Positions 39,174 to 53,461 of a DNA stretch of 64,000 nt are shown piece after piece. Each line of letters begins with the position of its first letter. The first letter of the stretch is position 1. A program made the position numbers and the translations under genes. This stretch comes from Candidatus Poribacteria bacterium. GTDB taxonomy: Bacteria; Poribacteria; WGA-4E; WGA-3G. The notes under the pieces were generated by a model. The model was not told the DNA's origin and did no database searches. It saw only the letters and a list, made by a program, of their open reading frames with translations. The stretch is from NCBI GenBank assembly GCA_026702755.1, contig JAPPBX010000081.1, positions 62,001 to 126,000 of the forward strand, in the 5' to 3' direction.

Positions 39174-39974
39174 ATGAAAACGATGATTTTATCCATCCTC
39201 TTCGGGTTTCTGCTCATTTTTACAGTCAATGCAGACTTTCTGCCAGAGGACAACAGCGATGCGTTTGGGTTGGAATATGCAGAATCAATCGCGGGGTTCA
39301 TCCCGAACGCCCCCAAGATTGATGGAAAACTTGACGATTGGAAGTATGCTATTTGGGTCGCCTTTGATTCTGAGAAGGAACTTCTTCGCGGAAAAGGCGC
39401 GTGGAAGGGAAAAGATGACCTTACAATGACTTGGTCAACCATGTATGATGCGAAAACCTTCTACTTCGCAGCAGCAGTGCGTGACGATATTTTCGCGCCA
39501 GCAGCGAATGCCGCACAACCTTGGATAGGTGATACGATTTTTTTGTATATCGATTGGGAGCAAGTGGGAGCTGGAACACCTGCATGCAAGCCCAATTTCG
39601 CGTTTATCAACAAAAAAGCCCTTGTCACCGACTTCAGTGGGGTCAAAAATCCGAATCTCCCGAAGTCCGATATAGCAATCGTGCCAACCCCCGAATTGGG
39701 TAAAGGTGGTATGATTTATGAGGTGGCGATGCCGTTTGAATGGCTCACGAAGGTAAAAGTCGAGGAGGGTACTGAAGTCGGGTTTACACCCGGATATGAG
39801 GAAGGCACGGATAACCCAGAGAAGAAGGCTGGTCTTGTGTTCATGGATTGGCACGGGCTGAATCCAGACGAATCCGCGAATCTTGGCACTTTGATCTTTG
39901 GCGAGCCGCTTGCTGTTGATCCGATAGGCAAGTTAACGCTAACATGGGGACAGTTAAAGAAATTCGTTCCATAA
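39174..39974 (+). CDS. Exported CBM9-like protein with conserved C-terminal motif
   Basis: A 266-aa exported protein: signal peptide MKTMILSILFGFLLIFTVNA. Residues about 40-235 resemble CBM9-like/DOMON-type beta-sandwich domains (APKIDGKLDDWKYAIWVAFD, MYDAKTFYFAAAVRDD, GDTIFLYIDWEQ), which bind sugars or heme-like ligands. The extreme C-terminus VDPIGKLTLTWGQLKKFVP carries the motif shared with the exported proteins at 41211 and 48372. GGAG precedes the ATG. The domain suggests a glycan-binding surface or periplasmic protein; the C-terminal motif may be a processing or anchoring signal. Confidence 0.82.
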   Translation: MKTMILSILFGFLLIFTVNADFLPEDNSDAFGLEYAESIAGFIPNAPKIDGKLDDWKYAIWVAFDSEKELLRGKGAWKGKDDLTMTWSTMYDAKTFYFAAAVRDDIFAPAANAAQPWIGDTIFLYIDWEQVGAGTPACKPNFAFINKKALVTDFSGVKNPNLPKSDIAIVPTPELGKGGMIYEVAMPFEWLTKVKVEEGTEVGFTPGYEEGTDNPEKKAGLVFMDWHGLNPDESANLGTLIFGEPLAVDPIGKLTLTWGQLKKFVP

Positions 39975-40012
39975 TTACGGAAATCCCTACAACCACATCA
40001 AGGAGGGGACCA

Positions 40013-40219
40013 ATGGGGGGACCGGGCTTCGCAGAACTCATAATCCTAATAGTGATGTATCCATTAGCAGCTATATTCGGGGCAGTCATAATTGGAATTG
40101 GCATTGCATTAGGTTTCAGATGGGGCAGCAAGTGGTTATTGAAAGCAATTTATAGCGATCCCGAACTTGAAAAATGGCTGAAACGGGTTCTCAACTCCTC
40201 TGAGAAATCAGATCAATAG
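40013..40219 (+). CDS. Small single-span membrane protein (68 aa)
   Basis: A 68-residue protein starting at ATG 40013, preceded by the strong ribosome site AAGGAGGGG; the longer open frame from 39944 overlaps the previous gene and lacks a site. Residues about 9-35 form a hydrophobic helix (LIILIVMYPLAAIFGAVII and on), then an amphipathic basic tail with RWGSKWLLKAIYSDPELEKWL. The tail would lie in the cytoplasm. No family recognised. It sits 38 bp after the CBM9-like gene and 49 bp before the DUF815 ATPase gene. Confidence 0.7.
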   Translation: MGGPGFAELIILIVMYPLAAIFGAVIIGIGIALGFRWGSKWLLKAIYSDPELEKWLKRVLNSSEKSDQ

Positions 40220-40268
40220 CAATATTTTTGAATCCTCTACTGATGTTTCAAACCAACCAAATTGAATT

Positions 40269-41171
40269 ATGTCGAAAAGAAATCAGGCAATGAAAGACAT
40301 TTTACCACTTTTCACGCAGCTGCTTGAAAAAGCCGATAACTTGCTAAACCTTTTGGACGCACGCACAGTGCTGGCACCAAGCGAATATCTTGATGATTAC
40401 ATCGCTTTCCGGTGGCGGGAGCAGAATGGGTCGGGACACCTAATTCCAGTTAAACATCCCAATCTTGTCGGGCTATCGGATTTGCTCGGGATAGAGAGGC
40501 AGTCTATGGAACTGGATCGGAACACACGGCAGTTTCTGCAAGGGCTGCCTGCTAACCACGTTCTGTTATGGGGCGACCGTGGCACTGGTAAATCTTCGCT
40601 TGTGAAGGGGATGCTATCGCGCTATGCCGATGAGGGACTTCGGTTAATCGGAGTCAGTAAAGAAGGGCTTGCGCACCTGCAGGAGATTACCGAGGTGTTG
40701 TGGGAGCGTCCAGAACGCTATATCCTTTTTTGCGACGACCTCGCCTTTAACGAAGATGAACCGGAATACCGCGAGTTGAAAGCGATGTTGGAAGGTGGAA
40801 TTTCTGCTTGCCCGGACAACGTTCTCATCTATGCTACCTCGAATCGTCGGCACCTGATGCCTCGACAGGTACGCGAAAACCGGTATCCACAGAACGATGA
40901 AGATGAATTATATCCGCGCGAGGCGACGGAAGAAAAGGTCTCATTAAGCGACCGTTTTGGGTTGCGCCTCGCTTTCCAACGGATTTCACAGGACACCTAC
41001 TTGCAGATTGTCTCCCATTACGCGCAGAAACACGGTCTCTCCGTTCCGACGGAAGCATTACACCGAGCCGCGTTGGAATGGGAGGCATCCTCAAGTGGGC
41101 GTTCAGGACGCGTCGCCTATCAGTTTGTTGCGGACCTCGCTGGACGATTGGCACTTACTACCGACAACTGA
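40269..41171 (+). CDS. DUF815-family AAA ATPase
   Basis: A 300-aa ATPase of the DUF815 family. The Walker A motif is LLWGDRGTGKSSLVKGML, Walker B is ILFCDDLAFNEDEPEYRELKAMLEGG (two Asp), and NVLIYATSNRRHLMPR is sensor I. LSDRFGLRLAF and the arginine-containing lid follow. The N-terminus (about 1-95) is a helical domain specific to this family. Members are widespread and often called predicted ATPase of the DnaA/IstB-like clade, with no agreed role. The gene ends at a stretch rich in CGACAACTGA/TGACAACT repeats. Probably cytosolic. Confidence 0.88.
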   Translation: MSKRNQAMKDILPLFTQLLEKADNLLNLLDARTVLAPSEYLDDYIAFRWREQNGSGHLIPVKHPNLVGLSDLLGIERQSMELDRNTRQFLQGLPANHVLLWGDRGTGKSSLVKGMLSRYADEGLRLIGVSKEGLAHLQEITEVLWERPERYILFCDDLAFNEDEPEYRELKAMLEGGISACPDNVLIYATSNRRHLMPRQVRENRYPQNDEDELYPREATEEKVSLSDRFGLRLAFQRISQDTYLQIVSHYAQKHGLSVPTEALHRAALEWEASSSGRSGRVAYQFVADLAGRLALTTDN

Positions 41172-41210
41172 TTACTGGCAACTGACAACTATTAAAAAAT
41201 GGAGGTTTTT

Positions 41211-41846
41211 ATGAAAAACCGATTGATGTTCTCTGTAATACTCACGCTCTTCCTGAGTGGTATACTTCTGATACAAACCACAGATGCTGTGCCGAAGAAA
41301 GGCACGTTACGGGTCAGCGGCGATAATACATGGGTTGCGTTTATTAACGGCGAAGAGGTCGCTGCAAGCGGAAACTGGCAAGCTCCTACGGTCAGTGAAT
41401 TTGACTTGGACAAAGGCTTCGCACAGATTGCCGTCTACGTCCACGACGCTGAACCCGGTGCTGCCGGTAGAGGTGGGTTCCTCGCCGATATCATCCTTGA
41501 TGCCAAGCCGGACTACATCGGAACGGGTGAAGATGGTTGGCGATGTGATACTGGCGACCCCATCGGTGATCGGAAAGATGGTTGGGAAAAAACCGATTTC
41601 GACGACAGCAAATGGGAAGATGAACTCGAAATCTATGAAAAATTCGGGGCTGGTATATGGGGATTTGGTGCTGCAATCATGCAACAAATTCTCAAAGACC
41701 CCGATTGTGAAGCGAATTGGGTATGGTGCGGTCCTAACGATGTCGAAGACGATATCTATTTCCGATACACCATTGGGACGCTTTCCGTTGAACCCGAAGA
41801 CAAACTCGCAACAACATGGGGTACTTTGAAAAATGAACGGCGGTAG
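41211..41846 (+). CDS. Exported protein with conserved C-terminal motif
   Basis: A 211-aa exported protein. ATG 41211 is chosen because GGAGG lies 5 bases before it; the in-frame ATG at 41199 precedes that site. The signal peptide (about 1-25, FSVILTLFLSGILLIQTTDA) is followed by a galactose-binding-like fold: LRVSGDNTWVAFINGEEV, IAVYVHDAEPGAAGRGGFLADI and YFRYTIGTL resemble the jelly-roll domain of bacterial rhamnosidases and exported lectin-like proteins. Acidic and Trp-rich segments fill the middle. It ends VEPEDKLATTWGTLKNERR, the C-terminal motif also seen in the proteins at 39174 and 48372. A hairpin follows the stop. Confidence 0.8.
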   Translation: MKNRLMFSVILTLFLSGILLIQTTDAVPKKGTLRVSGDNTWVAFINGEEVAASGNWQAPTVSEFDLDKGFAQIAVYVHDAEPGAAGRGGFLADIILDAKPDYIGTGEDGWRCDTGDPIGDRKDGWEKTDFDDSKWEDELEIYEKFGAGIWGFGAAIMQQILKDPDCEANWVWCGPNDVEDDIYFRYTIGTLSVEPEDKLATTWGTLKNERR

Positions 41847-41870
41847 ATTTAATCTTTCACAGTGAATTTG

Positions 41871-41893
41871 AGGGCACCCACAACGGGTGCCCT
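41871..41893. terminator. Hairpin AGGGCACCC-N5-GGGTGCCCT
   Basis: Perfect 9-bp arms (41871-41879, 41885-41893) between convergent genes; no T-run follows. A related hairpin is at 43316-43336. It may be a REP repeat with a terminator role. Confidence 0.55.
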
Positions 41894-41958
41894 ACCAGAC
41901 GCTTATATATTTCGATAATTCACCATAGTCTACAACTGCGCTTCAATCCAACCACGTG

Positions 41959-43251
41959 CTATGCGTCCTCAATAACCTCGGCGATTGTCTTGAAAACCGT
42001 TTCAATATCCGACTCTGCAAGGCATGAATAAGCCACCCGCAGCTCGGTTTCACCGAGTGCAATCGTGCCGATGCTGTGTTCCTCAAGAAGCTGCTGCCGA
42101 ACCGCCTCTGCGTTCGCGGATTTGAGGTTCAGGCATATAAAATAGCCAGCATGACTCGGATACACCTCCCAAAGTTTTGCGTATCGGGTATCTGACACAA
42201 TTTCTTTTGCTTTCAACGCGCGTGCCTTGAGTGTCTCATAGTTGTGTTGTTTTTGATCGGCATGCCCCGGAGCCTTCATCGCTTCAAGGATGAGTGTTTG
42301 GGAAACCTGTGAGGCACCGGAGGTATTCGCTCGAATTAGCCCACTGAACTTCTGTTCGAGGGGCTGCATCGCTGCCTCTCCGAGACCGAAACTTATAAAT
42401 CCGACACGTAAACCCCACGCATATTCCTCTTTCGTTGCTCCGTCTATCTTCACAGGGACCACATTCGGATGGCATCCGACCAACAGTCCGAAGAGCGATT
42501 CTTGCATAACCGAGGCATCGTACCACAGACCTGCGTAGGCATCATCAACCATAACGAGGATGCGACATCCAGCGTCCGCACGCCCCACAATCGCTTCTAC
42601 AATATGCTGTGCTTCCGTGCGCGTAATCGCATAACCGGTGGGGTTGTGCGGAAAATTCAGGAGAATCAGCAGCTTTTCGTGGGTAGCGTTGGTAAGTGTC
42701 TCGCGAAATCCGTGTGTGTTGAAACCTTTCGCCGCGTTAAAAAATGGATAGGTTTGGAGATTCGCCGCCGCTTTGGTTTGGAAAATAAGTCTATAATTCC
42801 CCCAAATCTTATCCGGTAGAACGAGCGTGTCTCCACTGTCTGTGAAAAGTTCCGCGAGTAGACTAAACCCGTGTGTCATTCCACTCGTCACAATTGGTAA
42901 GCTTAATGCTGTCTCGGCAAGTGACGGGTTCTCTTTCAAGAGATGCGTTTTCCATGCATCCCGTAATTCCGGTTGACCCAACACGGGTGCGTACCCGTAG
43001 ATACTCTCCAAAGGTAACGCTGGCGCGAACTCCCGTGAAACGGTGAGGTGCATCATATCGCTGTTCTCTAACGCGATCGCGCGAGTTGCATTGAAACGAC
43101 GTGCTTTCGCATTCGCCTCCGCCGTCTGGCTTAAGATACCTCTCGGCAGATAGATGCGTTCTCCTAACTTGGAGAGTAGCGCGGAGACTGTCGGCACGGC
43201 ATTTTGAATTTGCCTGTTTAATTCGATGGCTAAAGGATTTAAATCTTGCAT
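41959..43251 (-). CDS. Class I/II aminotransferase (ACC-synthase-like)
   Basis: PLP-dependent transaminase, 430 aa. ATG 43251 (MQDLNPLAIELNRQIQ) is preferred; the frame open to 43362 would include 37 unrelated residues through a repeat-bearing region. The NPTG loop is in NFPHNPTGYAITR, VDDAYAGLWYD follows, and the Schiff-base Lys lies in IDGATKEEYAWGLRVGF. The N-terminal phrase LPRGILSQTAEANAKA and the central APVLGQPELRDAWKTHLL are typical of a bacterial subgroup near aromatic/aspartate aminotransferases and ACC-synthase-like proteins. Physiological substrate unknown. It converges with the exported protein gene. Confidence 0.87.
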   Translation of the reverse strand: MQDLNPLAIELNRQIQNAVPTVSALLSKLGERIYLPRGILSQTAEANAKARRFNATRAIALENSDMMHLTVSREFAPALPLESIYGYAPVLGQPELRDAWKTHLLKENPSLAETALSLPIVTSGMTHGFSLLAELFTDSGDTLVLPDKIWGNYRLIFQTKAAANLQTYPFFNAAKGFNTHGFRETLTNATHEKLLILLNFPHNPTGYAITRTEAQHIVEAIVGRADAGCRILVMVDDAYAGLWYDASVMQESLFGLLVGCHPNVVPVKIDGATKEEYAWGLRVGFISFGLGEAAMQPLEQKFSGLIRANTSGASQVSQTLILEAMKAPGHADQKQHNYETLKARALKAKEIVSDTRYAKLWEVYPSHAGYFICLNLKSANAEAVRQQLLEEHSIGTIALGETELRVAYSCLAESDIETVFKTIAEVIEDA

Positions 43252-43315
43252 ATTTTCTCTAAATTGTGAACAATAATAACTGTATAAAACACTAAAAATA
43301 AAACATATTTTGTAG

Positions 43316-43336
43316 GGGCACCCCTTGTGGGTGCCC
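43316..43336. repeat. Hairpin GGGCACCC-N5-GGGTGCCC
   Basis: Perfect 8-bp arms in the 230-bp divergent gap upstream of the aminotransferase and the SH3-like protein gene. It is the same sequence family as 41871-41893, so it is probably a dispersed palindromic repeat. Confidence 0.6.
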
Positions 43337-43481
43337 GCAAACGCAACGTTTACAATGCCCAATTAATTCTAAACTTTACTATAAATTGTGGACTGTCGCC
43401 AACTTAATGTCAACCGATTTCCACCACTATCCGTTTAAGAAGAAAAAAATTTAGACGCATCACATAGCACAAGGAAAAAAC

Positions 43482-44585
43482 ATGAAAGCACTTTTGAAAA
43501 GCCTGACATTGATCATTATCTTTGTCGTTTTTGTCGGTCTCGGCTTTAGCGTCTATGTTCTTCAAGCACCACCAGTTGAACAGAAAGGCGCGCCGAAACT
43601 ACAGATCCATACACGTACAGCACTGCGCAGCAGACCGACAGTAAACTCAAAACCGATTCGTTATACCAAAGATGTATACCGTTTCAGTGTGGATCGGCAA
43701 TATATTAGCAACCTAAATAGCGGTAAATTAGAGCATGAACTTCTGTTTAGTGCGGGGTTAGCGCATCGTGCAAGATTGAAAGCGCAACGTTTAGATGACT
43801 CTTTGAAAACAGCAACCGATTGGCAAAAGATGTTTGCTGATATGACACAAGATATTCGATTCCGTCCGAGCGCGTCACCTGTTGAAGTCTTACTGAGTGG
43901 TGAGGAGTGGTCACTCAGAGATACCACCGGTGCCGCATACACAGTCGTAAAAACTGACGACCGGGTTGATGTTTATCTACCTGATCTGAGGGCGGCGTTT
44001 GACGCAAACAAAATCTCGCTATCAACAGATCTGGAAATCTCCACTAAACAAGCAAACAGGCGATGGCTCCTCACGGATAAAGGATATAAACAGGCTTACA
44101 GCATTGTGAACGGTGAAGGAAAACTCAATGTTTTTCAGCAATCGAAGTTTGAAATTCTGACGTTTCTATTTGAAGTGGATACGGCATTGCAAAGCTCCCT
44201 CGCACAGGAAAAGTTGTCTTCTGAATTGATTCAAGAATTTGTGAAGGAAAAAATACCATTGTCACGACGGGCGAAAGTGTCCGCGAACGAAAACGGTATA
44301 AGTTGGCAGATAACCAACCCTCCATTGAAGTATAATATCCGAAGTGAGGACGGTCGATTGAAGGTCTATCTTGATCTTGAAAGTAGATGGCTCCTCGTCA
44401 AAGTTGATGACAGCGTAAAAGGCTGGGTCCAAAGCGAGCGCGGCACCATTTTCGAGCCACCCGCACCAACACCGAGTTCACGTCAGCAAGTCAAAGAACG
44501 GCTTCTCGGACTCATTGATGAATTGAAAGCGAAAGTCGGACTCTCCAATGCAGAAAATGAAGCCCAAGATACTGCGTCCCGGTAG
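43482..44585 (+). CDS. Membrane-anchored protein with SH3-like C-terminus
   Basis: A 367-aa protein, family not recognised. The N-terminus has one transmembrane anchor (about 8-29, LTLIIIFVVFVGLGFSVYVL) and the rest faces the periplasm. Near residues 300-330, DLESRWLLVKVDDSVKGWVQSERG resembles the last strands of a bacterial SH3 domain (W-x-x-V...GWV-x-S-x-G). Two earlier blocks (TDWQKMFADMTQDIRF and TGAAYTVVKTDDRVDVYLP) look beta-rich. AAGGA precedes the ATG. It overlaps the S66 peptidase gene by 38 bp in another frame, so the two are likely co-expressed; SH3 domains often bind peptidoglycan, which would fit that partner. Confidence 0.68.
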   Translation: MKALLKSLTLIIIFVVFVGLGFSVYVLQAPPVEQKGAPKLQIHTRTALRSRPTVNSKPIRYTKDVYRFSVDRQYISNLNSGKLEHELLFSAGLAHRARLKAQRLDDSLKTATDWQKMFADMTQDIRFRPSASPVEVLLSGEEWSLRDTTGAAYTVVKTDDRVDVYLPDLRAAFDANKISLSTDLEISTKQANRRWLLTDKGYKQAYSIVNGEGKLNVFQQSKFEILTFLFEVDTALQSSLAQEKLSSELIQEFVKEKIPLSRRAKVSANENGISWQITNPPLKYNIRSEDGRLKVYLDLESRWLLVKVDDSVKGWVQSERGTIFEPPAPTPSSRQQVKERLLGLIDELKAKVGLSNAENEAQDTASR

Positions 44586-45600
44586 TCGTGTCGCAGCGAT
44601 TTCGCTCTCCTGGGGCGGTCCCGGCACTATTCCCTACCGATACCAAATAGGTAAACGGCAATTTGAAGAAGAATTCGGTGTGACGGTTATTGAGACCGAA
44701 CACACCTTGCGCGATGCAGATTGGCTTGCCAGAAATCCCGAAGCGCGTGCCCACGATTTGATGGCAGCTTTCGCCGACGAGACAATCGACGGAATTATCT
44801 CAACCATCGGTGGTGAAGACTCAATCCGCACACTGCCATACCTTGACTTGGACTTGATTTGGAAGAACCCTAAAGTCTTCATGGGTTTTTCGGATACGAC
44901 TATATCGCACGCTGCCTGTTTTAAAGCGGGCCTCGTGTCGTTCTACGGTCCGTCATTTATGGCAGGATTTGCCGAAAACGACGGGATGTTTCCGTATATG
45001 GTGGATTCTGTGAGACGCACGCTCTTTTCCGCCGAACCGATTGGTGTTATTGAACCGAATCGAGCGGGTTGGACAGTTGAACATCTACCGTGGGAGAACC
45101 CTGAAAACCAGTCAGTTCGTCGGAAACTCAACCCTTGCACCGGTTGGAAGTTTCATCAGGATGAAGGTGTTGTCGAAGGACAACTTTTTGGGGGTTGTGT
45201 TGAGGTTTTGGACTGGCTTCGCGGCACCGACTATTTCCCTTCTGGTGGTGACCTTCAAGGTGCCGTTCTCTTTTTGGAGACCTCTGAAGAGGCACCGCCG
45301 CCTTCGTTTCTGGCGAGGTTTGTGAGATGCATCGCAGCGATGGGCGTTCTCGAAGGACTTAGCGGTATCCTACTTGGACGACCCGGGGGCGGTGTCGATC
45401 CTGGCACTTTCCACGAATACGACGACGCACTTTGTAAAGCCGTCCGTGAAGAACACGAGTTAAACGACATGCCGATTGTCACCAATATGGACTTTGGGCA
45501 CACGGATCCGATGTTCGTCATCCCAATGGGCATGAAGGCTCGTATTGATTCTGCCAAGCAGGAAATCGTCATTGACGAGGCAGCGGTTATCGAAAACTGA
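44548..45600 (+). CDS. S66-family serine peptidase (LD-carboxypeptidase/MccF-like)
   Basis: A 350-aa Ser-Glu-His peptidase of the LdcA/MccF family. The opening KPKILRPGSRVAAISLSWGG is typical; the GGEDSIRTLPYLD motif and the nucleophile-bearing MGFSDTTISHAA are clear; the C-terminal half contains GFGH-equivalent MDFGHTDPMFVIPMG with the catalytic His. LD-carboxypeptidases trim recycled murein tetrapeptides, whereas MccF-like members cleave microcin C-type peptide-nucleotides or acyl amides. It overlaps the upstream SH3-like protein gene. An alternative ATG is 9 bp downstream. Which branch it belongs to is unclear, though its sequence looks closer to MccF-like proteins. Confidence 0.87.
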   Translation: MQKMKPKILRPGSRVAAISLSWGGPGTIPYRYQIGKRQFEEEFGVTVIETEHTLRDADWLARNPEARAHDLMAAFADETIDGIISTIGGEDSIRTLPYLDLDLIWKNPKVFMGFSDTTISHAACFKAGLVSFYGPSFMAGFAENDGMFPYMVDSVRRTLFSAEPIGVIEPNRAGWTVEHLPWENPENQSVRRKLNPCTGWKFHQDEGVVEGQLFGGCVEVLDWLRGTDYFPSGGDLQGAVLFLETSEEAPPPSFLARFVRCIAAMGVLEGLSGILLGRPGGGVDPGTFHEYDDALCKAVREEHELNDMPIVTNMDFGHTDPMFVIPMGMKARIDSAKQEIVIDEAAVIEN

Positions 45601-45618
45601 CACAAAAAATTAGTATGA

Positions 45619-45721
45619 TGTTGGGTTCACTGGGTTTTCGTAACATAAACTGACCTATTCGATTTGACATGTCTTTGAGAGACTACATCGAATTTCTCTT
45701 TTCCGTTCAACCCAACTTACA
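45619..45721. repeat. Inverted repeat related to the 60.2-kb element
   Basis: GTTGGGTT (45620-45627) pairs with AACCCAAC (45709-45716), and the right end CCGTTCAACCCAACTTACA differs from the right end of the 60193-60438 element in only one base. Probably a shorter or decayed relative in the 155-bp gap before the glycosyltransferase gene. Confidence 0.5.
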
Positions 45722-45755
45722 GCGATACTGATTACACGCTTGGCTAATTAAAAAG

Positions 45756-46946
45756 ATGAAGATTCTTTTTCTTTCCCCTACCGTGCCGTTCCCACTCACT
45801 GACGGCGGACGTATCCGGGTGTTTAACCTCCTCAAACAGATCGCGCAGAAAAGCGAAGTGACGTTGCTCGCCTTAGAGACACAACCGACAGATGCAGAAG
45901 GGGTTTCCCAACTCCAGCAATTAGGTATTCAGGTGCATCTTGTCTCCAACGCACCGACACTTCCACGTCTATCGTTCGGCACACTCGCCAACGCTTTCTT
46001 CAAACGACAACCCATCACTGTTGCGCGCTATGATCTACCTGCCTATCGCCAGCAGTTCAAAGCGTTAATCGCAACCGATATTTTCGACCTCGTCCATTAC
46101 GAGATGTTCCACACAGCACAGTTTCGGACAGAGACAGATCTGCCCGGTGTGCTTTCACAACAGAACGTCGATTCTGCAATCTGGCGGCGACTTTGTGGCG
46201 AGACTGTCAACCCGTTCTATAAGTTCGCATACTGGACGCAGCAACTCGCATTCCAACGCTACGAACGGGTGCTAAGTCCAAAATTCGATGCCGTAACGTG
46301 TACCTCCGACATCGATGCCGCCGTTTTCCAACAACACTGTGCAGAAGGCGTTATTGAGATAATTCCGAACGGTGTTGATGTCACGCATTACCAGCCCGAC
46401 TTTTCTGCTGAGGCTCCCGCACACCTCATCTATATCGGGAGCATGGACTGGTATCCCAACGAGGACGCTGTCTCCTTTTTTGCCGATGAGGTGTTACCTC
46501 AGATTCACGCCGAGGTACCCGAGGTCAAATTTTCGATTGTTGGCGGAAATCCATCGGCACATGTCAAAAAGTTAGCGGAGAAAGAAGGGATTGTTGTCAC
46601 CGGACGTGTGCCGGAGATCAAACCCTATTTCGCAGAGACGACGGTCTTTGTCGTACCGTTGCGCATCGGGAGCGGCACCCGCCTGAAAATCCTTGAAGCT
46701 TTGGCGATGGGCAAAGCGATTGTCTCTACCTCAGTCGGTGCGGAGGGGTTGGATCTCAAAGATGGCGAGGAAATCTTCATTGCTGACGAACCAAAGGTCT
46801 TTGCCGAGGCGGTCACCCGATTGCTCAAGGACCCGTCCCTTCGCCGTAGGATTGGTGAAAACGGCCGCGCCCGTGTGGAGCAGGATTACGATTGGCGGAG
46901 CATCAGCGAGAAACTCCACCAACTCTATACCAGAATCCTCCCCTAA
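45756..46946 (+). CDS. Family 4 glycosyltransferase (TIGR03087-like)
   Basis: GT-B retaining glycosyltransferase, 396 aa. The N-terminal donor-independent domain opens MKILFLSPTVPFPLTDGGRIR (glycine-rich loop). The C-terminal domain has LIYIGSMDWYPNEDAVSFF, VKFSIVGGNPS, VVTGRVPEIKPYFAETTVFVVPLRIGSGTRLKILEALAMGKAIVSTSVGAEG, with the E(x7)E donor-binding pattern. It closely follows the sugar transferases associated with exopolysaccharide/PEP-CTERM loci. It transfers a nucleotide-sugar residue during surface polysaccharide synthesis. No other polysaccharide genes are next to it; the epimerase at 11054 could provide precursors. Confidence 0.9.
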   Translation: MKILFLSPTVPFPLTDGGRIRVFNLLKQIAQKSEVTLLALETQPTDAEGVSQLQQLGIQVHLVSNAPTLPRLSFGTLANAFFKRQPITVARYDLPAYRQQFKALIATDIFDLVHYEMFHTAQFRTETDLPGVLSQQNVDSAIWRRLCGETVNPFYKFAYWTQQLAFQRYERVLSPKFDAVTCTSDIDAAVFQQHCAEGVIEIIPNGVDVTHYQPDFSAEAPAHLIYIGSMDWYPNEDAVSFFADEVLPQIHAEVPEVKFSIVGGNPSAHVKKLAEKEGIVVTGRVPEIKPYFAETTVFVVPLRIGSGTRLKILEALAMGKAIVSTSVGAEGLDLKDGEEIFIADEPKVFAEAVTRLLKDPSLRRRIGENGRARVEQDYDWRSISEKLHQLYTRILP

Positions 46947-46987
46947 AATCAGTGATCCTCGTTTTCCTTAAGCCTGGTCTGAATGCG

Positions 46988-48034
46988 TCATTCCTTTGGG
47001 AGCTTGTGCTTTTCTCTCCACTGTGGGTATGCATCTGCAAGGAGCTTGGAAGCCCAGCCGCCGTAGTAGGCGTAGCCGGTGCGGCGTTCCTGCCCGATCT
47101 CGGAGAACGAGTAGCGGACCACCGAGTCGCGATCGAGAAAGATTGGACGGTTGCTGCCGAGCTCGTAGAAACGCGCCCAGAGGGGTCCCGCGTCGGGATC
47201 CGCCACGACCCGCCTATCGTTCTGCCCCTCTGCGTCAGTGAACGTCTTTAAGCGGATGCCGTGGATAGTGACGCTCCTGAACCACTCAACAGCCCCCTCA
47301 ACAGCAGCGATGATCGCTGGCGTAGGTTCCTCGACAGACATCAGGAAACGCACGACACCGACGCTTTCAGCACCTGAGATCGATGGCGGTTCATAAGAAC
47401 GGGCCCACGCAGGCGCAAGCGTTTTTTCGTCATGCTGCGCACACCAAGCCGTGAGCTTATCATTCTGCCTGATTTGCGTGCGTAGGATGCAGTTGATGCC
47501 CTTGGTTACTGCAACTTCAGCCTGAGTGCGGTACCCTGTTTCCAAAAACGCATAGTCGGAGGATTCAGAGACATCCCGGAGGAGTTCGAGAATTCGCACC
47601 ATAGCGTTGTCATTGAACGTGATGTGACGAGGGTAGCCTTTGCTTAGTGGATAAAACTGTGGCCACCCGCCATTCGGGTATTGCGCTTCGAGGATATGAG
47701 AAAGACCTTTGAGAAATGCTTGTTGATAGCGCGGCTCGTTTGTCGCACGAAATGCACGCCCAAGAAACCGTAGTTCGTCAATGGTCGCACTGTTGTCGAA
47801 CGTTCCGTGTAGATCGTCACTTTTGCCATCAAACGGCTCAGATGCCGTGTCTCTATTCTTGGGCCAACCGCCGTGCGGTGTCTGCCACGTAAGGACGTTG
47901 TCGGCTATACGGCGCCCCTCCTCGCTCTGAAACCATTCAACGGACTGCTTCGCATATCGGGAAGGAACGGTTGCATCGGAAGATGACAGAAACAAAATAA
48001 GTAAAACATAGAGGGTAGTAAATCGTAGTTTCAT
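46988..48034 (-). CDS. Exported pectate lyase (family PL10)
   Basis: A 348-aa polysaccharide lyase. Signal peptide about residues 1-22 (LRFTTLYVLLILFLSSSDA). The alpha/alpha-toroid carries the PL10 signatures: WQTPHGGWPKN near residue 50, GTFDNSATIDELRFLGRAF, AQYPNGGWPQFYPL and ITFNDNAMVRILELL. The calcium/substrate Asp and Arg residues fall in those blocks. It cleaves polygalacturonate by beta-elimination. The 3' third (46988-about 47340) is strikingly GC-rich, with C/G at most third codon positions, compared with the rest. Ends RTGYAYYGGWASKLLADAYP, as in full-length homologues, so the protein is complete. Confidence 0.9.
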   Translation of the reverse strand: MKLRFTTLYVLLILFLSSSDATVPSRYAKQSVEWFQSEEGRRIADNVLTWQTPHGGWPKNRDTASEPFDGKSDDLHGTFDNSATIDELRFLGRAFRATNEPRYQQAFLKGLSHILEAQYPNGGWPQFYPLSKGYPRHITFNDNAMVRILELLRDVSESSDYAFLETGYRTQAEVAVTKGINCILRTQIRQNDKLTAWCAQHDEKTLAPAWARSYEPPSISGAESVGVVRFLMSVEEPTPAIIAAVEGAVEWFRSVTIHGIRLKTFTDAEGQNDRRVVADPDAGPLWARFYELGSNRPIFLDRDSVVRYSFSEIGQERRTGYAYYGGWASKLLADAYPQWREKHKLPKE

Positions 48035-48371
48035 GATAGTGCCCCTTCGTTAGTAGTCAGAGGGTGTTGGTTAAACAAAAACCAGAACCATCGTTATTGC
48101 TTGAGTGTATTGACAATTTCTGCGTTACCCTCACGCAACGCCATGACGAACAGACCGTCGAATTGGACTCTCAAAAGTATACCACACAAAATGGGAAAGC
48201 GCAAGATGTAGGAACTGGGAATCCAGAGCGATTTAGTTTTCGGTTTTCTGGTCCGGTTCTGTAGACGCAATCCCAAAAAGTTGATTTTCTTTCTCCGATG
48301 TGCTAATATGTAACCAACTTGAACAAAACCCTCCAGTCTTAATAACGAACCACTTAAAAGGAGCTATTCCG
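48035..48371. other. Intergenic region
   Basis: 337 bp between the pectate lyase and LamG genes. Open frames on both strands (48064-48264 and 48094-48276) have no ribosome site and no recognisable family. The minus-strand peptide ends VQFDGLFVMALREGNAEIVN, which looks more protein-like than chance and might be a gene remnant. TTGACA at 48108 has no matching -10. Confidence 0.4.
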
Positions 48372-49121
48372 ATGAAAGTTTTTATGTTAACTTTGGCAGT
48401 CACCCTTCTACTGATGAGTGCTACTTTAGGGATTGCGGGTGAAGATCCTGATTTAGTGGCTTACTTCCCGTTTGAGGGGAGTGCAGAGGATGCATCTGGA
48501 AACGGAAACGATGGGAAAATTGAGGGTGGATCCAAGTGGGTTAAAGGCAAATTTGGAGACGCCATCAACCTTGATGCGGCAGCTTATGTCGAACTACAGG
48601 TTTCCGATTCTCTCAACGGCGACATTTTCAAAGCAGACCCCTTCACAATTTCCGCTTGGATTAATCCGAATTTTGAAGGTACCACGTGGGAACATATCTG
48701 GCGGAGTCTACCGGGTGCTTCCGGACACAATACCTTCTTCCTCAACAAAGACCAAGGACTCCTCTCTTGGCGAGGGCAGGTCGGCGGATGGACAGTCTTA
48801 TGTCAGAGCGACGGTGGAATCGTTGAAAAGGATAAATGGATGCATGTAGCCGTCACAGGGGATGGCGATAAATTCAAGATTTATGCCGACGGCGAGAAGG
48901 TCGCCGAGACCGACTTTCAAGAAACGCGCGGTAACAATGTAACCTACCGTCTTGGCGGCACAGGTGGCGAGACGTTCGCTGGTCTAATGGACGACTACGC
49001 CGTCTTCACTCGTGCGTTAGATGAAGATGAAATCAGTCTGATAATGGACAGCGTTGAAGTGTTCTTACCCGTTGAACCGAAAGGCAAGCTCGCAACACAA
49101 TGGGCAGCCCTCAAACGCTAA
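48372..49121 (+). CDS. Exported LamG/concanavalin-like protein with conserved C-terminal motif
   Basis: A 249-aa exported lectin-like protein. ATG 48372 is chosen over an upstream one because AAGGAG precedes it and it opens a signal peptide (MKVFMLTLAVTLLLMSATLG, ending IAG). The rest is one LamG/ConA-like jelly roll: DLVAYFPFEGSAEDASGNGNDG, FTISAWINPNFEGTTWEHIW, WMHVAVTGDGDKFKIYADGE and GLMDDYAVFTRALDEDEI. It ends VEPKGKLATQWAALKR, the third example of the C-terminal motif found at 39174 and 41211. Probably binds extracellular glycans. A hairpin follows the stop. Confidence 0.88.
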   Translation: MKVFMLTLAVTLLLMSATLGIAGEDPDLVAYFPFEGSAEDASGNGNDGKIEGGSKWVKGKFGDAINLDAAAYVELQVSDSLNGDIFKADPFTISAWINPNFEGTTWEHIWRSLPGASGHNTFFLNKDQGLLSWRGQVGGWTVLCQSDGGIVEKDKWMHVAVTGDGDKFKIYADGEKVAETDFQETRGNNVTYRLGGTGGETFAGLMDDYAVFTRALDEDEISLIMDSVEVFLPVEPKGKLATQWAALKR

Positions 49122-49190: not shown

Positions 49191-50822
49191 TTGCCAAAAA
49201 AGAAAACCGAAACAGATACACCCCAACCTTCACTCTTCCCATCCGAGAACGAAGAACAACTGGATATCTCCACCCTTGAAACATGGCTACTGGATGCCGC
49301 GAATACCATTCGAGGCGCAAGCGATGCCCCAAAATTCAAGGATTTCATCTTACCTCTCATCTTCTACAAACGACTCTCCGATGTGTTTGACGATGAATTT
49401 GCCAAACAAATAGAAGAGTTCGGCAATGAAGAATTGGCACGAGAAATTGTTGAGGCAGACCACAAAGACGCACTCCAATCCGGACGGAACCCGATTGTCC
49501 GTTTTTACATTCCACCCGAATATCACTGGAACGCACTTCGCAACCACCCCGCCGACGGTCATCTGGGTGAATTTGTTACCGATGCAATGCGCGAAGTCGC
49601 ACGCCTTAACCCACTATTACAAGGAGTACTTGATGTCAAAGATTTCAGCGAAAGCCAGAGCGGACAACGCACGCTCGACGAAGAACGACTGGAGGCACTG
49701 ATTGAAGTACTAAGTCGGCATCGGCTTGGACTACAGGACACGGAACCGGACATCCTCGGCCGTGCGTATGAGTATCTATTACGGAAATTTGCTGAAGGGC
49801 AGGGACAGAGCGCGGGCGAGTTCTACACACCAAAAGAGGTTGGTGAACTAATGGCGCGTCTCCTCAACCCAGAACCCTACACCACTATCTACGATCCTGC
49901 GTGCGGCTCAGGTGGCTTGCTTATCAAAGGGCGGTTGCAATTTGAAGAAATGCACCCGGATGAAAAGAGTCAAGCACCTCAAATATACGGACAAGAATTG
50001 ACTCCCACCACCTACGCCATGGCAAAGATGAATGCTTTTCTGCACGATTTCATAGGCGCAGCTATTCAGATCGGAGATACCTTCCGCAATCCCCGTTTCA
50101 CAGATGATGATGCAACACTGCAACGCTTCAATTATGTAGTTGCGAATCCGATGTGGAATCAGAAGGAGTATGACGATGCCTTTTACGAGAACGACAACTG
50201 GAACCGATTTTCGGACGGCATCGCACCGAGTTCCTCAGCAGATTGGGGATGGGTACAACATATACTCGCCTCTTTAAAGGAAACTGGACGCGCCGCAATT
50301 GTGCTGGATACCGGCGCAGTCTCTCGCGGTTCTGGAAGTCAGAACACCGATCGGGAGCGTGATATCCGCAAAAAGTTTGTGAAGAAAGACTTAATTGAAG
50401 GCGTGATCCTTCTGCCCGAAAACCTGTTTTACAATACAAGCGCACCGGGCATTATCTTACTGCTGAACCGCAGCAAGCCAAAGGAACGCAAAGACCAAAT
50501 CCTACTCATCAATCTCTCCCAGCACTTTGAGAAGGGAAAACCGAAAAATATCCTCACCGATGAAGGAATTGATGCCGCGAGGGAAGTCTATCAGGCGTGG
50601 GAGTCTCGTGAGAAGTTGAGCAGCGTTATCAAATTAGAAGATGCGCAAAAAACCGATTACAACCTGAGTCCCTCCCAATTTGTAGACATAGGCGACAAGG
50701 TTGAACACCGTCCGGTGAATGAAATTCTTGCAGACTTAACAGAAGCACGCATCACCCGCCAAAAAGCAGATAAGACTTTAGATGATGTGTTGGCACAGCT
50801 TGGATTGAATGAACAGCATTAA
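49191..50822 (+). CDS. hsdM: Type I restriction-modification methyltransferase HsdM
   Basis: Modification subunit, 543 aa, N6-adenine methyltransferase of a type I system. It starts with TTG at 49191 after AAAGGAAACG. The N-terminal HsdM helical domain (ILPLIFYKRLSDVFDDEF) is followed by GEFYTPKEVGELMARLL, the SAM motif DPACGSGG (235-242), and motif IV as NPMWN (319-323), a variant of NPPF/Y. AEGQGQSAGEFYTPKE is family-typical. It heads a plus-strand cluster with two inserted genes, then hsdS and hsdR. It methylates target sites for self-protection, in complex with HsdS. Confidence 0.95.
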   Translation: MPKKKTETDTPQPSLFPSENEEQLDISTLETWLLDAANTIRGASDAPKFKDFILPLIFYKRLSDVFDDEFAKQIEEFGNEELAREIVEADHKDALQSGRNPIVRFYIPPEYHWNALRNHPADGHLGEFVTDAMREVARLNPLLQGVLDVKDFSESQSGQRTLDEERLEALIEVLSRHRLGLQDTEPDILGRAYEYLLRKFAEGQGQSAGEFYTPKEVGELMARLLNPEPYTTIYDPACGSGGLLIKGRLQFEEMHPDEKSQAPQIYGQELTPTTYAMAKMNAFLHDFIGAAIQIGDTFRNPRFTDDDATLQRFNYVVANPMWNQKEYDDAFYENDNWNRFSDGIAPSSSADWGWVQHILASLKETGRAAIVLDTGAVSRGSGSQNTDRERDIRKKFVKKDLIEGVILLPENLFYNTSAPGIILLLNRSKPKERKDQILLINLSQHFEKGKPKNILTDEGIDAAREVYQAWESREKLSSVIKLEDAQKTDYNLSPSQFVDIGDKVEHRPVNEILADLTEARITRQKADKTLDDVLAQLGLNEQH

Positions 50823-50865
50823 AAAAAGCCATGCTGGTATGTGCAGTTGTGCGGTTTCCTAAATT

Positions 50866-50894
50866 TTGATTTAACAGCATAAATATGCTATAAT
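50866..50894 (+). promoter_or_regulatory. Sigma-70 promoter with internal palindrome before the inserted DUF433 gene
   Basis: TTGATT (50866-50871), 17 bp, TATAAT (50889-50894). The spacer contains the palindrome AGCATA-AA-TATGCT (50876-50889), placed where a repressor would block the polymerase. It implies that the DUF433 fusion gene is transcribed independently of hsdM and may be autoregulated. Confidence 0.65.
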
Positions 50895-50926
50895 GTTGGT
50901 AAACACTTGATAAGAGATGAAAATTC

Positions 50927-52360
50927 ATGACAATACTCAATTTAGCATTCAAGGCTTATAACATTGTAGGCACTGGATCTTCTATGATTGGTGGTATCAA
51001 CTACGCCATCAAACATTTTTGCCAAACTACAGCAAAGGAATTTTTCAAAAAGTCTTTTGATAAAGTCGTTAAGCAATACGCATCTGACTTTGCTGATCTT
51101 ACTGATCCAAAAACAGTTAAAGTGGATCGTCATACATTTGACAACGTTATGGCTTCACTAAAAGATGCTGATGAAGCCCAATTTACACAATTAAATGAAA
51201 GTGAGAAAATCGCGAAAATCACAACACTTTTTCGGAACTGTATTATCGTCCCCAACCATCAATTGCCCAATATGGATTTTGAACGGAGAATTCGCCCCAT
51301 TATTGAGAGAGTGATTATTGATTTTTATTCACAACTTCCATTCAAACAGGAAGCATTTAATCAAATTGCACTTGAATTTATTCAAGATAGCACCACCGCG
51401 CAGGCAAACACAGATTCTATGCTATTGGACTTTACCAGAGAAATTGAACAGGTGCAGTTGGAAGTGAGTGAACGTATAAGCCAAGATATCCAAGCCATCA
51501 AAGATGACACTGAAAACATTACGGACGATAATGAGGAACTTAAGCAAACGACGGATAGTAATAGTTTAGATACATGGGGGTCCCTCATAGGTAACCCTGA
51601 ATTAGGGATTAGGTGTCGTATGGGTGATTTTGATTCAGACCTACTATTGGAAATCGCAAAACGTTCAAGTTGGAAGCTCTCTGAGCCTTACAACAGTTTT
51701 GTGCTTGCCTTAGGTGAAGAACGAATGAATTTGCAAACAGCATTAGACGTGAGCGTTGATTTCCTCTTTAAACTTTGGGAGAAATCAATTTTATTCAGAC
51801 AAAAAGAATTTTTGACGTTGGGTTTGCTAACTGGACTTACTGATGGACGGAATGCCCACAAAGTATTGAACCGACTTGAACATCTAATTCAAAATAAGCA
51901 CAAACTTTTTTTACCGATTGAAAACAGTATCCTCAGACAAATCCGTAATTTTCAACAAATCTATCCTCTTGAAAATAACTTCATGTTTTTGGCAGAAAAC
52001 GATATTCGTCTTAAAGGAACACGGGTAGGTATTGAAACCATCCTATACGAATATATGTACAATGGCAAAATGCCAGTCGTCATCGCTGATCACTACTATA
52101 CCCCCACACTGGAACAAGTTTACGCCACAATCTTATATTATCTTCAAAATCAAGAAAAAGTTGGTACATATTTGGAGAATTATCTGGCATACTGCCGAAA
52201 GGTGCGAGAAGAACAGGCGAAAAATCCGTCACCCGCTGTTATTCGCTTGCGTAAACTTCTGGCAGAAAGGGCAGCAACTTCTGATACTCCGTACACACAA
52301 ATTCCAAAAGACGGATCAGCAAGCACAACACAATCTCCATCCGAAAATGAACAGGAATAA
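50927..52360 (+). CDS. NTPase-type N-terminus fused to DUF433 antitoxin domain
   Basis: A 477-aa protein. Residues about 1-160 are a helical domain (GTGSSMIGGINYAIKHF, then IIERVIIDFYSQLPFKQEAF and FIQDS) like the N-terminal effector/sensor domain of some NACHT and TPR proteins. A coiled coil follows (165-210). Residues 215-355 are unassigned (IGNPELGIRCRMGDFDSDLL, SILFRQKEFLTLGLLTG). Residues about 359-425 (NDIRLKGTRVGIETILYEYM, then TLEQVYATILYYLQN) are a DUF433 domain, the VapB-like antitoxin partner of DUF5615 toxins. NPSPAVIRLRKLLAER follows, as in stand-alone DUF433 proteins. Its stop is 2 bp before the DUF5615 gene. AT-rich relative to hsdM. Confidence 0.72.
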   Translation: MTILNLAFKAYNIVGTGSSMIGGINYAIKHFCQTTAKEFFKKSFDKVVKQYASDFADLTDPKTVKVDRHTFDNVMASLKDADEAQFTQLNESEKIAKITTLFRNCIIVPNHQLPNMDFERRIRPIIERVIIDFYSQLPFKQEAFNQIALEFIQDSTTAQANTDSMLLDFTREIEQVQLEVSERISQDIQAIKDDTENITDDNEELKQTTDSNSLDTWGSLIGNPELGIRCRMGDFDSDLLLEIAKRSSWKLSEPYNSFVLALGEERMNLQTALDVSVDFLFKLWEKSILFRQKEFLTLGLLTGLTDGRNAHKVLNRLEHLIQNKHKLFLPIENSILRQIRNFQQIYPLENNFMFLAENDIRLKGTRVGIETILYEYMYNGKMPVVIADHYYTPTLEQVYATILYYLQNQEKVGTYLENYLAYCRKVREEQAKNPSPAVIRLRKLLAERAATSDTPYTQIPKDGSASTTQSPSENEQE

Positions 52361-52362
52361 AG

Positions 52363-52719
52363 ATGCGTCGGTATCTGATAGACGAAAATATTTCTCCGAA
52401 ATACCGTACGCAATTGCTTTACCATGAACCATCACTAACGGTCTTGGTGATTGGCGATGAGGATGCTCCTCCGAAAAGCACGCCAGACCCAGAAATCTTA
52501 GCGTGGTGTGAACAGCACCAATTTAACTTGATAACAAACAATCGGGAAAGTATGCCGCAACATCTCTCTGACCATATCGCAGCAGGACATCATGTACCCG
52601 GCATTTTCACGATTAATCTCCAAGTGCCAATGGGAAAAATTATTGACGAGTTGCTTCTCATCGCTGGTGCATCTGACGAAGACGAATATATGGACGAAAT
52701 TAAATATCTACCATTTTAA
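52363..52719 (+). CDS. DUF5615 PIN-like toxin
   Basis: A 118-aa PIN-like (Mut7-C-related) protein. It starts MRRYLIDENISPKYRTQLL with the acidic pair D7-E8, and has DPEILAWCEQHQFNLITNNRESMPQHL and HVPGIFTINLQVPMGKIIDELLLIAG, the standard layout of DUF5615 proteins paired with DUF433. Where many members read TxD, this one reads TNN, which is common in one subgroup. Predicted ribonuclease toxin of a type II toxin-antitoxin pair with the upstream fusion protein. It begins 2 bp after that gene's stop (TAAAGATG), so the two are translationally linked. It lies 97 bp before hsdS. Confidence 0.83.
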   Translation: MRRYLIDENISPKYRTQLLYHEPSLTVLVIGDEDAPPKSTPDPEILAWCEQHQFNLITNNRESMPQHLSDHIAAGHHVPGIFTINLQVPMGKIIDELLLIAGASDEDEYMDEIKYLPF

Positions 52720-52816
52720 CAACGAACTCAAGTTAAGGACATCACTCAACTCCGCTCAATCTGCTTCATTCGCGAAAAGCTGGCACCGTATAGGTTGAAT
52801 CAGTGAAAATGATGCC

Positions 52817-53461
52817 ATGAATAATACAAATTTCCCAGAACATTGGAAAGTAGTGCGTTTTGGCGACATTACTACGTTTACAAAGAAACCAAGAGACTTA
52901 CGATATTCGGAATATAATGAAATCCCATTTGTACCGATGGAATTGATTCCGATTGCCAAACTATCTTCTGAAGAATTCATTCTCAAAACAAACGATGAAC
53001 TAAAGAGTGGAACCTATTTTGAGCCTGGGGACATTCTTCTTCCTAAAATCACACCATCCTTTGAAAATAGGAAACAGTGCATCATTAAGGAGTTGCCAAC
53101 GCCATTTGGTATCGCAACAACTGAGGTGATTCCAATTCGGGAAATGGAAGGCATTAGCGATATATCCTACCTTTTCTATTACCTGTTACTTCCTGATGTT
53201 CGGGTCTCACTTGCTGGAAAAATGCAAGGTACGACGGGTAGGCAGCGACTAAGTAAAGACGCGCTTGTTAACTTGCAAATACCTCTCCCTCCACTTCCAG
53301 AACAACGCGCTATTGCTGCTGTTTTTCAAGCAATTGATGAAAAAACAGCAGCCCTTGAACAAGAAGTGGAACATCTGGATGAACTGTTCCACGCTATGCT
53401 TGACGAACTAATGACAGGACAAAGGTCCGCTGTGCCTTTAATCAAAGACGGAGAGCTATAA
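52817..53461 (+). CDS. hsdS: Type I specificity subunit HsdS, half-length
   Basis: Specificity subunit of 214 aa, about half the usual length. It contains one target-recognition domain (NFPEHWKVVRFGDITTFTKK to GKMQGTTGRQRLSKDALVNL) and one conserved spacer helix (IPLPPLPEQRAIAAVFQAID to LEQEVEHLDELFHAMLDELMTGQ). With only one TRD it would have to dimerise and recognise a palindromic or symmetric bipartite site. No second hsdS fragment is next to it. Its stop overlaps the hsdR start in TAATG. Half-size S subunits are known in functional systems, so truncation is not proof of decay. Confidence 0.9.
   Translation: MNNTNFPEHWKVVRFGDITTFTKKPRDLRYSEYNEIPFVPMELIPIAKLSSEEFILKTNDELKSGTYFEPGDILLPKITPSFENRKQCIIKELPTPFGIATTEVIPIREMEGISDISYLFYYLLLPDVRVSLAGKMQGTTGRQRLSKDALVNLQIPLPPLPEQRAIAAVFQAIDEKTAALEQEVEHLDELFHAMLDELMTGQRSAVPLIKDGEL

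Follow-up and report, generated by a model that had tools for sequence, protein, structure and literature searches.

The window, by which we mean the entire stretch of 64,000 nucleotides analyzed in the present study, comes from Candidatus Poribacteria and contains three genes for small, predicted exported proteins that end in the same short tail, and a gene for a larger protein with a known type of C-terminal domain. These features are listed below; the coordinates of the tails were converted from those of contig C81.

27647..30355, plus strand: 902-aa protein with a FlgD/T9SS type A C-terminal domain (TIGR04183, 28 bits, above the 23-bit cut-off), given for contrast
39174..39974, plus strand: predicted exported CBM9_1 protein, 266 aa; open reading frame with a signal peptide, a CBM9-like domain (PF06452, E 4e-7), and the C-terminal tail
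39909..39959, plus strand: tail 1, LAVDPIGKLTLTWGQLK, followed by KFVP and the stop codon (tail profile match at C81:101909-101959, 29.8 bits)
41211..41846, plus strand: predicted exported protein, 211 aa; weak lectin/rhamnosidase-type sandwich (weak NF041573 match, orthologues, AlphaFold, and Foldseek) and the C-terminal tail
41781..41831, plus strand: tail 2, LSVEPEDKLATTWGTLK, followed by NERR and the stop codon (tail profile match at C81:103781-103831, 32.6 bits; low-confidence region of the model)
48372..49121, plus strand: predicted exported LamG protein, 249 aa; signal peptide, Laminin_G_3 domain (PF13385, E 3e-23; orthologues from 26 other loci; AlphaFold pLDDT 84), and the C-terminal tail
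49065..49115, plus strand: tail 3, LPVEPKGKLATQWAALK, followed by R and the stop codon (tail profile match at C81:111065-111115; conserved in orthologues; residues 235-249 with pLDDT <50)

The three tails conform to the consensus L-x-V-[ED]-P-x-[GD]-K-L-[AT]-T-T-W-[GA]-x-[LI]-K, with 4, 4, and 1 residues, respectively, between the motif and the stop codon. Apart from the tail, nothing is common to the three proteins, and the best BLASTP alignment of each pair consisted of the tail alone (E 0.003, 5e-4, and 0.011, computed for one comparison). The initial annotation had described an extreme C-terminal motif on three exported proteins that all begin with signal peptides, and both observations were confirmed; a crude hydropathy rule identified Sec-type N-termini on all three, and orthologues back the start codons of the 41211 and 48372 proteins. 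The different folds that it had assigned were upheld only in part. CBM9_1 and LamG were recovered by Pfam, whereas the jelly-roll-like fold of the 41211 protein received only weak support. This protein had no Pfam match and only a weak match to the rhamnosidase model NF041573, and its classification as a lectin/rhamnosidase-like sandwich is accordingly only weakly supported. Relatives of it were found in 73 of the 85 poribacterial genomes, and many have another copy next to the first. The closest relatives of the LamG protein (48372) were all from Poribacteria records, and many were 80-92% identical. Toxin binding domains among the PDB matches of the LamG model were rejected as only generic lectin-fold resemblances.

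Frequency and position of the tail

A tail profile of 17 columns, built on 31 tails, yielded at least 150 matches in the 5.8-Mb genome to which the window belongs, with E-values from 3e-9. Nine further LamG proteins that are not among these listed matches also score at least 10 bits for the tail. The 48372 LamG protein had 114 matches in the same genome, most of which extended into the tail. The motif is, therefore, found on far more proteins than the three on which it was first noticed. Furthermore, all 85 poribacterial genomes, which represent 10 families and 22 genera, contained matches to the profile, from 18 to more than 100 in each. In a closed genome of the same genus (G083), 8 of the 283 genes in an evenly spaced 400-kb sample carried the tail, and it was terminal in all of them. 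The outgroup comparison was limited to Planctomycetota, with no other phylum being sampled; the tail was detected in 2 of 199 genomes with two matches each. Since one of the two matches in genome G085 was located on a 4.4-kb contig, we suspect that the Planctomycetota tails are on contaminating (misbinned) poribacterial contigs; however, this has not been proven.

The initial annotation would have been refuted by a motif that occurs equally often inside proteins. At a threshold of 10 bits, the profile matched 168 termini (15 residues or fewer from the stop) and no internal site in 17,376 stop-to-stop ORFs, which together comprise 1.49 million residues, and shuffled or reversed versions of the same ORFs gave no match at this threshold. 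The number of terminal tails is not a frequency because some of the sampled loci were retrieved for carrying tails. The distance between the tail and the stop was 0-7 residues in nearly all cases and rarely more, with a mode of 3, and the median was 1 to 2 in three more distant genera. Such loose placement speaks against recognition at a set distance from the carboxylate.

Proteins carrying the tail

A Sec-type hydrophobic N-terminus was detected by the crude hydropathy rule on 73 of the 77 carriers that were fully read; the other four are truncated or frameshifted ORFs. When one crude rule was applied to all genes, a signal peptide was assigned to 62 of 68 carriers, as against 178 of the 516 remaining genes, such that the co-occurrence of the motif with signal peptides is supported. 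The rule is permissive, also firing on about a third of non-carrier genes, but the contrast with the carriers is still large. Nearly all carriers are 200-460 aa in length. They are drawn from eight or more Pfam families whose folds differ, namely, Laminin_G_3, CBM9_1, CBM_4_9, F5_F8_type_C, 3keto-disac_hyd, PD40/DPPIV_N propellers, a Kelch propeller, and a rhamnosidase-type sandwich. Most have non-enzymatic binding folds (LamG, CBM, F5/8C, and propellers). Carriers without a Pfam name also exist, and some of these resemble ThuA or glutamine-amidotransferase folds by eye.

LamG relatives account for over half of the carriers. Of 103 LamG matches in the genome of the window, 98 scored at least 10 bits for the tail, one had a degenerate tail, and four had none; these four sit in ORFs of 548-1147 aa. 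The tail may descend from the C-terminus of a single ancestral domain or gene family, retained by ordinary homology while the bodies diverged, and the LamG relatives have indeed inherited it together. However, Kelch and PD40 propellers, F5/8C, CBM9, and LamG are unrelated folds, and the AlphaFold model does not pack the tail on the LamG body. We regard this explanation as very improbable. Shared-domain homology was rejected based on the diversity of folds together with the tail-only pairwise alignments. The second result that would have refuted the initial annotation, a motif forming the final strand of a domain common to the proteins, is contradicted by the number of Pfam families and the unpacked LamG tail.

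Conservation of the tail

Among 27 orthologous sequences of the 48372 protein, identity was 0.94 in the tail, 0.90 in the LamG domain, and 0.77 in the signal peptide, making the tail the most conserved part. In a wider set of 42 LamG relatives, comprising orthologues and distant paralogues (most of the latter at 21-33% identity), the only invariant columns were W96, V234, W244, and K248, the last three of which are in the tail. The V, W, and K of the tail are nearly invariant. The AlphaFold model of the LamG protein has a mean pLDDT of 84 with a well-modelled LamG domain, whereas residues 235-249 scored below 50; no other stretch of the mature protein longer than three residues scored so low. 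Similarly, the tail was among the lowest-scoring parts of the 41211 model (mean pLDDT 62). Such conservation without packing is characteristic of a peptide that binds to another molecule. Signals of its secondary structure conflict, with AlphaFold giving a low-confidence helix and the hydrophobic moment favouring a strand-like period.

Codon identity at shared tail residues was 0.349, against 0.327 expected from codon usage in the bodies. Since the codons are as mixed in the tails as in the bodies, the constraint acts at the protein level rather than reflecting a copied DNA element, and a value near expectation indicates that the DNA of the tails diverged long ago. These results bear on another explanation, in which a mobile DNA element or the recent exchange of tails spreads a functionless sequence. 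Its support is that tails drift jointly across different folds within one genome, as noted among the genera compared. Tail position 16 was L in 13 of 13 tails in G009, I in 13 of 15 in G002, and I in 12 of 14 in G004, while I/(I+L) in the protein bodies was 0.42, 0.50, and 0.56, respectively; position 2 was S in 12 of 13 tails in G009, which has a GC content of 0.59. However, the tail codons are mixed while the amino acids are nearly fixed, and codon diversity within the tails rules out a copied DNA element; we find the spread of a functionless tail hardly credible. The joint drift fits one shared reader per lineage, although tail exchange and GC content were not excluded as its cause.

Comparison with known C-terminal signals

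MYXO-CTERM is distributed phylum-wide, and the signals of sortase, exosortase, rhombosortase, and myxosortase are tripartite (PMC11980579). The poribacterial tail resembles MYXO-CTERM in its phylum-wide distribution (PMC11980579), and resembles MYXO-CTERM, GlyGly-CTERM, PEP-CTERM, and PGF-CTERM in that each is short, C-terminal, and shared within a genome by many otherwise unrelated proteins with signal peptides. However, the CTERM signals (of myxosortase, rhombosortase, exosortase, and archaeosortase) have a transmembrane helix and a basic end, whereas the tail has no hydrophobic segment; none of the 77 carriers reached a mean hydropathy of 1.6 over 17 residues when the last 50 residues were scanned. 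Moreover, the MYXO-CTERM motif includes an invariant cysteine, and no cysteine was present in the last 25 residues of the 77 carriers. No NCBIfam C-terminal model matched the 42 LamG relatives or the three window proteins, and no Pfam model covered the tail in the proteins searched. A tripartite CTERM or sortase signal (LPXTG, PEP-, GlyGly-, PGF-, or MYXO-CTERM) was excluded based on the absence of a transmembrane segment and of an NCBIfam match, in agreement with the initial annotation, which had considered the motif to be unlike LPxTG and PEP-CTERM.

The initial annotation had also distinguished the motif from the FlgD/T9SS tail of the 902-aa protein, and this distinction was retained. The T9SS type A domain (TIGR04183) is likewise an extreme C-terminal module on exported proteins, but has approximately 72 profile positions and occurs on large proteins, whereas the tail has 17 residues and occurs on small ones. 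The three window proteins matched neither the type A (TIGR04183/PF18962) nor the type B (CHU_C) domain, and the 42 LamG relatives did not match TIGR04183. The β-signal of outer-membrane β-barrels was excluded by the folds of the carriers (LamG, CBM, and propellers, not β-barrels) and their mostly non-aromatic ends; the conserved W of the tail is located four residues before the final Lys of the motif, and most carriers end in a non-aromatic residue. In the open-access literature (most subscription journals were outside the scope of our search), we found no paper with the consensus strings and no family description of the tail, and the open-access Poribacteria papers examined did not describe such a tail. 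The tail is best filed among C-terminal sorting or docking tags, without the defining features of any named family tested.

Type IX machinery in Poribacteria

A 2014 study on single-cell poribacterial genomes reported type IX C-terminal domains, but not type IX structural genes (PMC3909097). In the genome of the window, we found 59 type A domains in ORFs of 419-2163 aa, and an inspection of the two lists revealed no ORF shared between these and the listed tails (at least 150). The genome also encodes a SprA-like protein of 2256 aa and at least seven PorV-family loci above the NF033709 cut-off. The SprA-like protein aligns collinearly with TIGR04189 (E 1e-17), scoring 62 bits where the cut-off is 200, and no PDB chain was matched by sequence. 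Relatives of the SprA-like protein were present in 84 of 85 poribacterial genomes. Judging from the SprA-like protein, which scores below its cut-off, and the PorV family, a type IX-like machine seems to be present in Poribacteria. These proteins reopen the question of how proteins move to the poribacterial surface, in contrast to the 2014 finding (PMC3909097).

In the genome of the window, the gene immediately upstream of the sprA-like gene encodes a LamG protein with the tail, and about 21 of 30 loci from the same genus share this arrangement. However, none of about 20 loci sampled outside the genus, in other genera and other families, has a LamG tail gene beside sprA. The adjacency is an event in one lineage and weak evidence, and we dropped it as support because it is absent outside the genus.

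The tail may be a minimal type IX secretion signal that is read by PorV-family shuttles and a SprA-like translocon, as is the 70-residue type A domain on the large proteins of this genome. This would be a specific version of the recognition signal that we propose below. The near-universal SprA-like protein and the PorV-family members are in its favor, and the 59 type A domains suggest that the pathway is in use; the gene order within the genus also fits. However, the tail is only 17 residues long, is not an Ig-like domain, and does not match TIGR04183; the SprA-like protein scores below its family cut-off and has no PDB match by sequence, and the gene order is lineage-restricted. We consider this version unlikely, but not to be dismissed. 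A T9SS-like machine is the leading candidate reader of the tail; this is unproven and we do not claim the route.

Proposed function of the tail

The tail resembles a previously unreported address label for a single partner in the cell envelope. We consider it likely that it is a short linear C-terminal recognition signal, a sorting or docking tag, that is read by one envelope receptor after Sec export. However, the receptor, protease, and translocon were not identified and no localization data are available; to our knowledge, the Poribacteria concerned are uncultured. As inferred from sequence, carriers would be made with a Sec signal peptide and exported. The carrier domain would then fold, leaving a flexible C-terminal peptide of 15-20 residues exposed, for which the AlphaFold models provide support. 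One envelope receptor, common to all carrier folds, is inferred to bind the V-[ED]-P-x-[GD]-K-L-x-T-T-W-[GA]-x-[LI]-K peptide, with V, W, and K as the presumed main contacts because they are nearly invariant. The receptor may deliver the carrier or hold it in place, most likely at the cell surface. The initial annotation had suggested a processing or anchoring signal or docking to one partner; its reading as a sorting signal is supported, whereas anchoring, processing, and docking themselves remain inferences without a demonstrated reader.

More tentatively, a Poribacteria-specific envelope pathway could well read a 17-residue tag without a transmembrane helix on at least about 150 exported proteins and deliver small glycan-binding proteins to the sponge-facing surface, but we do not favor this fuller proposal over its absence. 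If correct, the tag would be a bacterial protein-sorting signal of a new class, served by a dedicated receptor. About 3% of the genes sampled in a poribacterial genome (the 8 of 283 described above) would be addressed by one unreported tag. A major phylum of sponge symbionts is likely to use the tagged proteins as its surface lectins and binding modules, and the tag offers a one-step listing of the poribacterial surface proteome and a search for its receptor.

The recognition signal may also serve assembly rather than transport, with glycan-binding or display modules docking on an S-layer, a matrix, or a large surface protein. The prevalence of small, non-enzymatic binding folds among the carriers is consistent with this version, and the disorder and loose placement of the tail suit a docking peptide. 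However, we did not encounter a scaffold bearing a suitable receptor domain, although none was systematically sought, and we regard assembly as somewhat unlikely while keeping it in consideration. Peptides that load cargo into encapsulins and microcompartments are short and terminal, dock diverse proteins to one receptor, and act in the cytoplasm. The tail resembles them as a short terminal peptide on diverse proteins, but their cargo is cytoplasmic, whereas the tail carriers are predicted to be exported (73 of 77 by the crude rule). Type I dockerins are similar to the tail in being C-terminal docking modules; they are Ca-binding repeats of about 60 residues. Separately, a WD40 protein in the window shows a dockerin-like end.

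Type IX-like components and tail-bearing proteins

A homologue resembling the type IX translocon SprA/Sov was found in 84 of the 85 Poribacteria genomes; the score of the 2256-aa protein at the locus below is under the family cut-off. In contrast, no type IX structural genes were reported for Poribacteria in a 2014 study (PMC3909097). The PorV family is expanded in the genome that supplied the window, with at least seven loci above the curated cut-off (NF033709), which suggests several shuttles, each with a different cargo.

Loci in this genome (contig:positions):
C124:28365-35135 (sampled locus L185:10365-17135), SprA/Sov-like homologue
C120:47888-48868, C33:54093-54929, C43:65955-66956, PorV-family examples

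In many genomes the type of protein encoded at 41211 (211 aa, exported) has an adjoining second copy, the tail of which is identical in kind to that of the first.

Second copies (sampled loci):
L345:792-1397
L322:844-1452

Tail-bearing genes were also present in two genomes classed as Planctomycetota (L177, JACNGQ010000398.1, a contig of only 4.4 kb; and G271:C103). In both, this is probably misbinned poribacterial DNA.

Other window features:
27647-30355 (+), 902-aa protein, HAF-type repeats as two tandem halves plus type A T9SS domain
32418-34445 (-), WD40 propeller protein, dockerin-like end (DVNGDSVVNIDDL...DVNGDGIVNILDL)
49191-56331 (+), HsdM-, HsdS- and HsdR-like ORFs

With its resemblance to a type I dockerin, the C-terminus of the WD40 protein brings the kinds of C-terminal module in the window to three. 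By eye only, 49191-56331 reads like a type I restriction-modification operon interspersed with unrelated ORFs.
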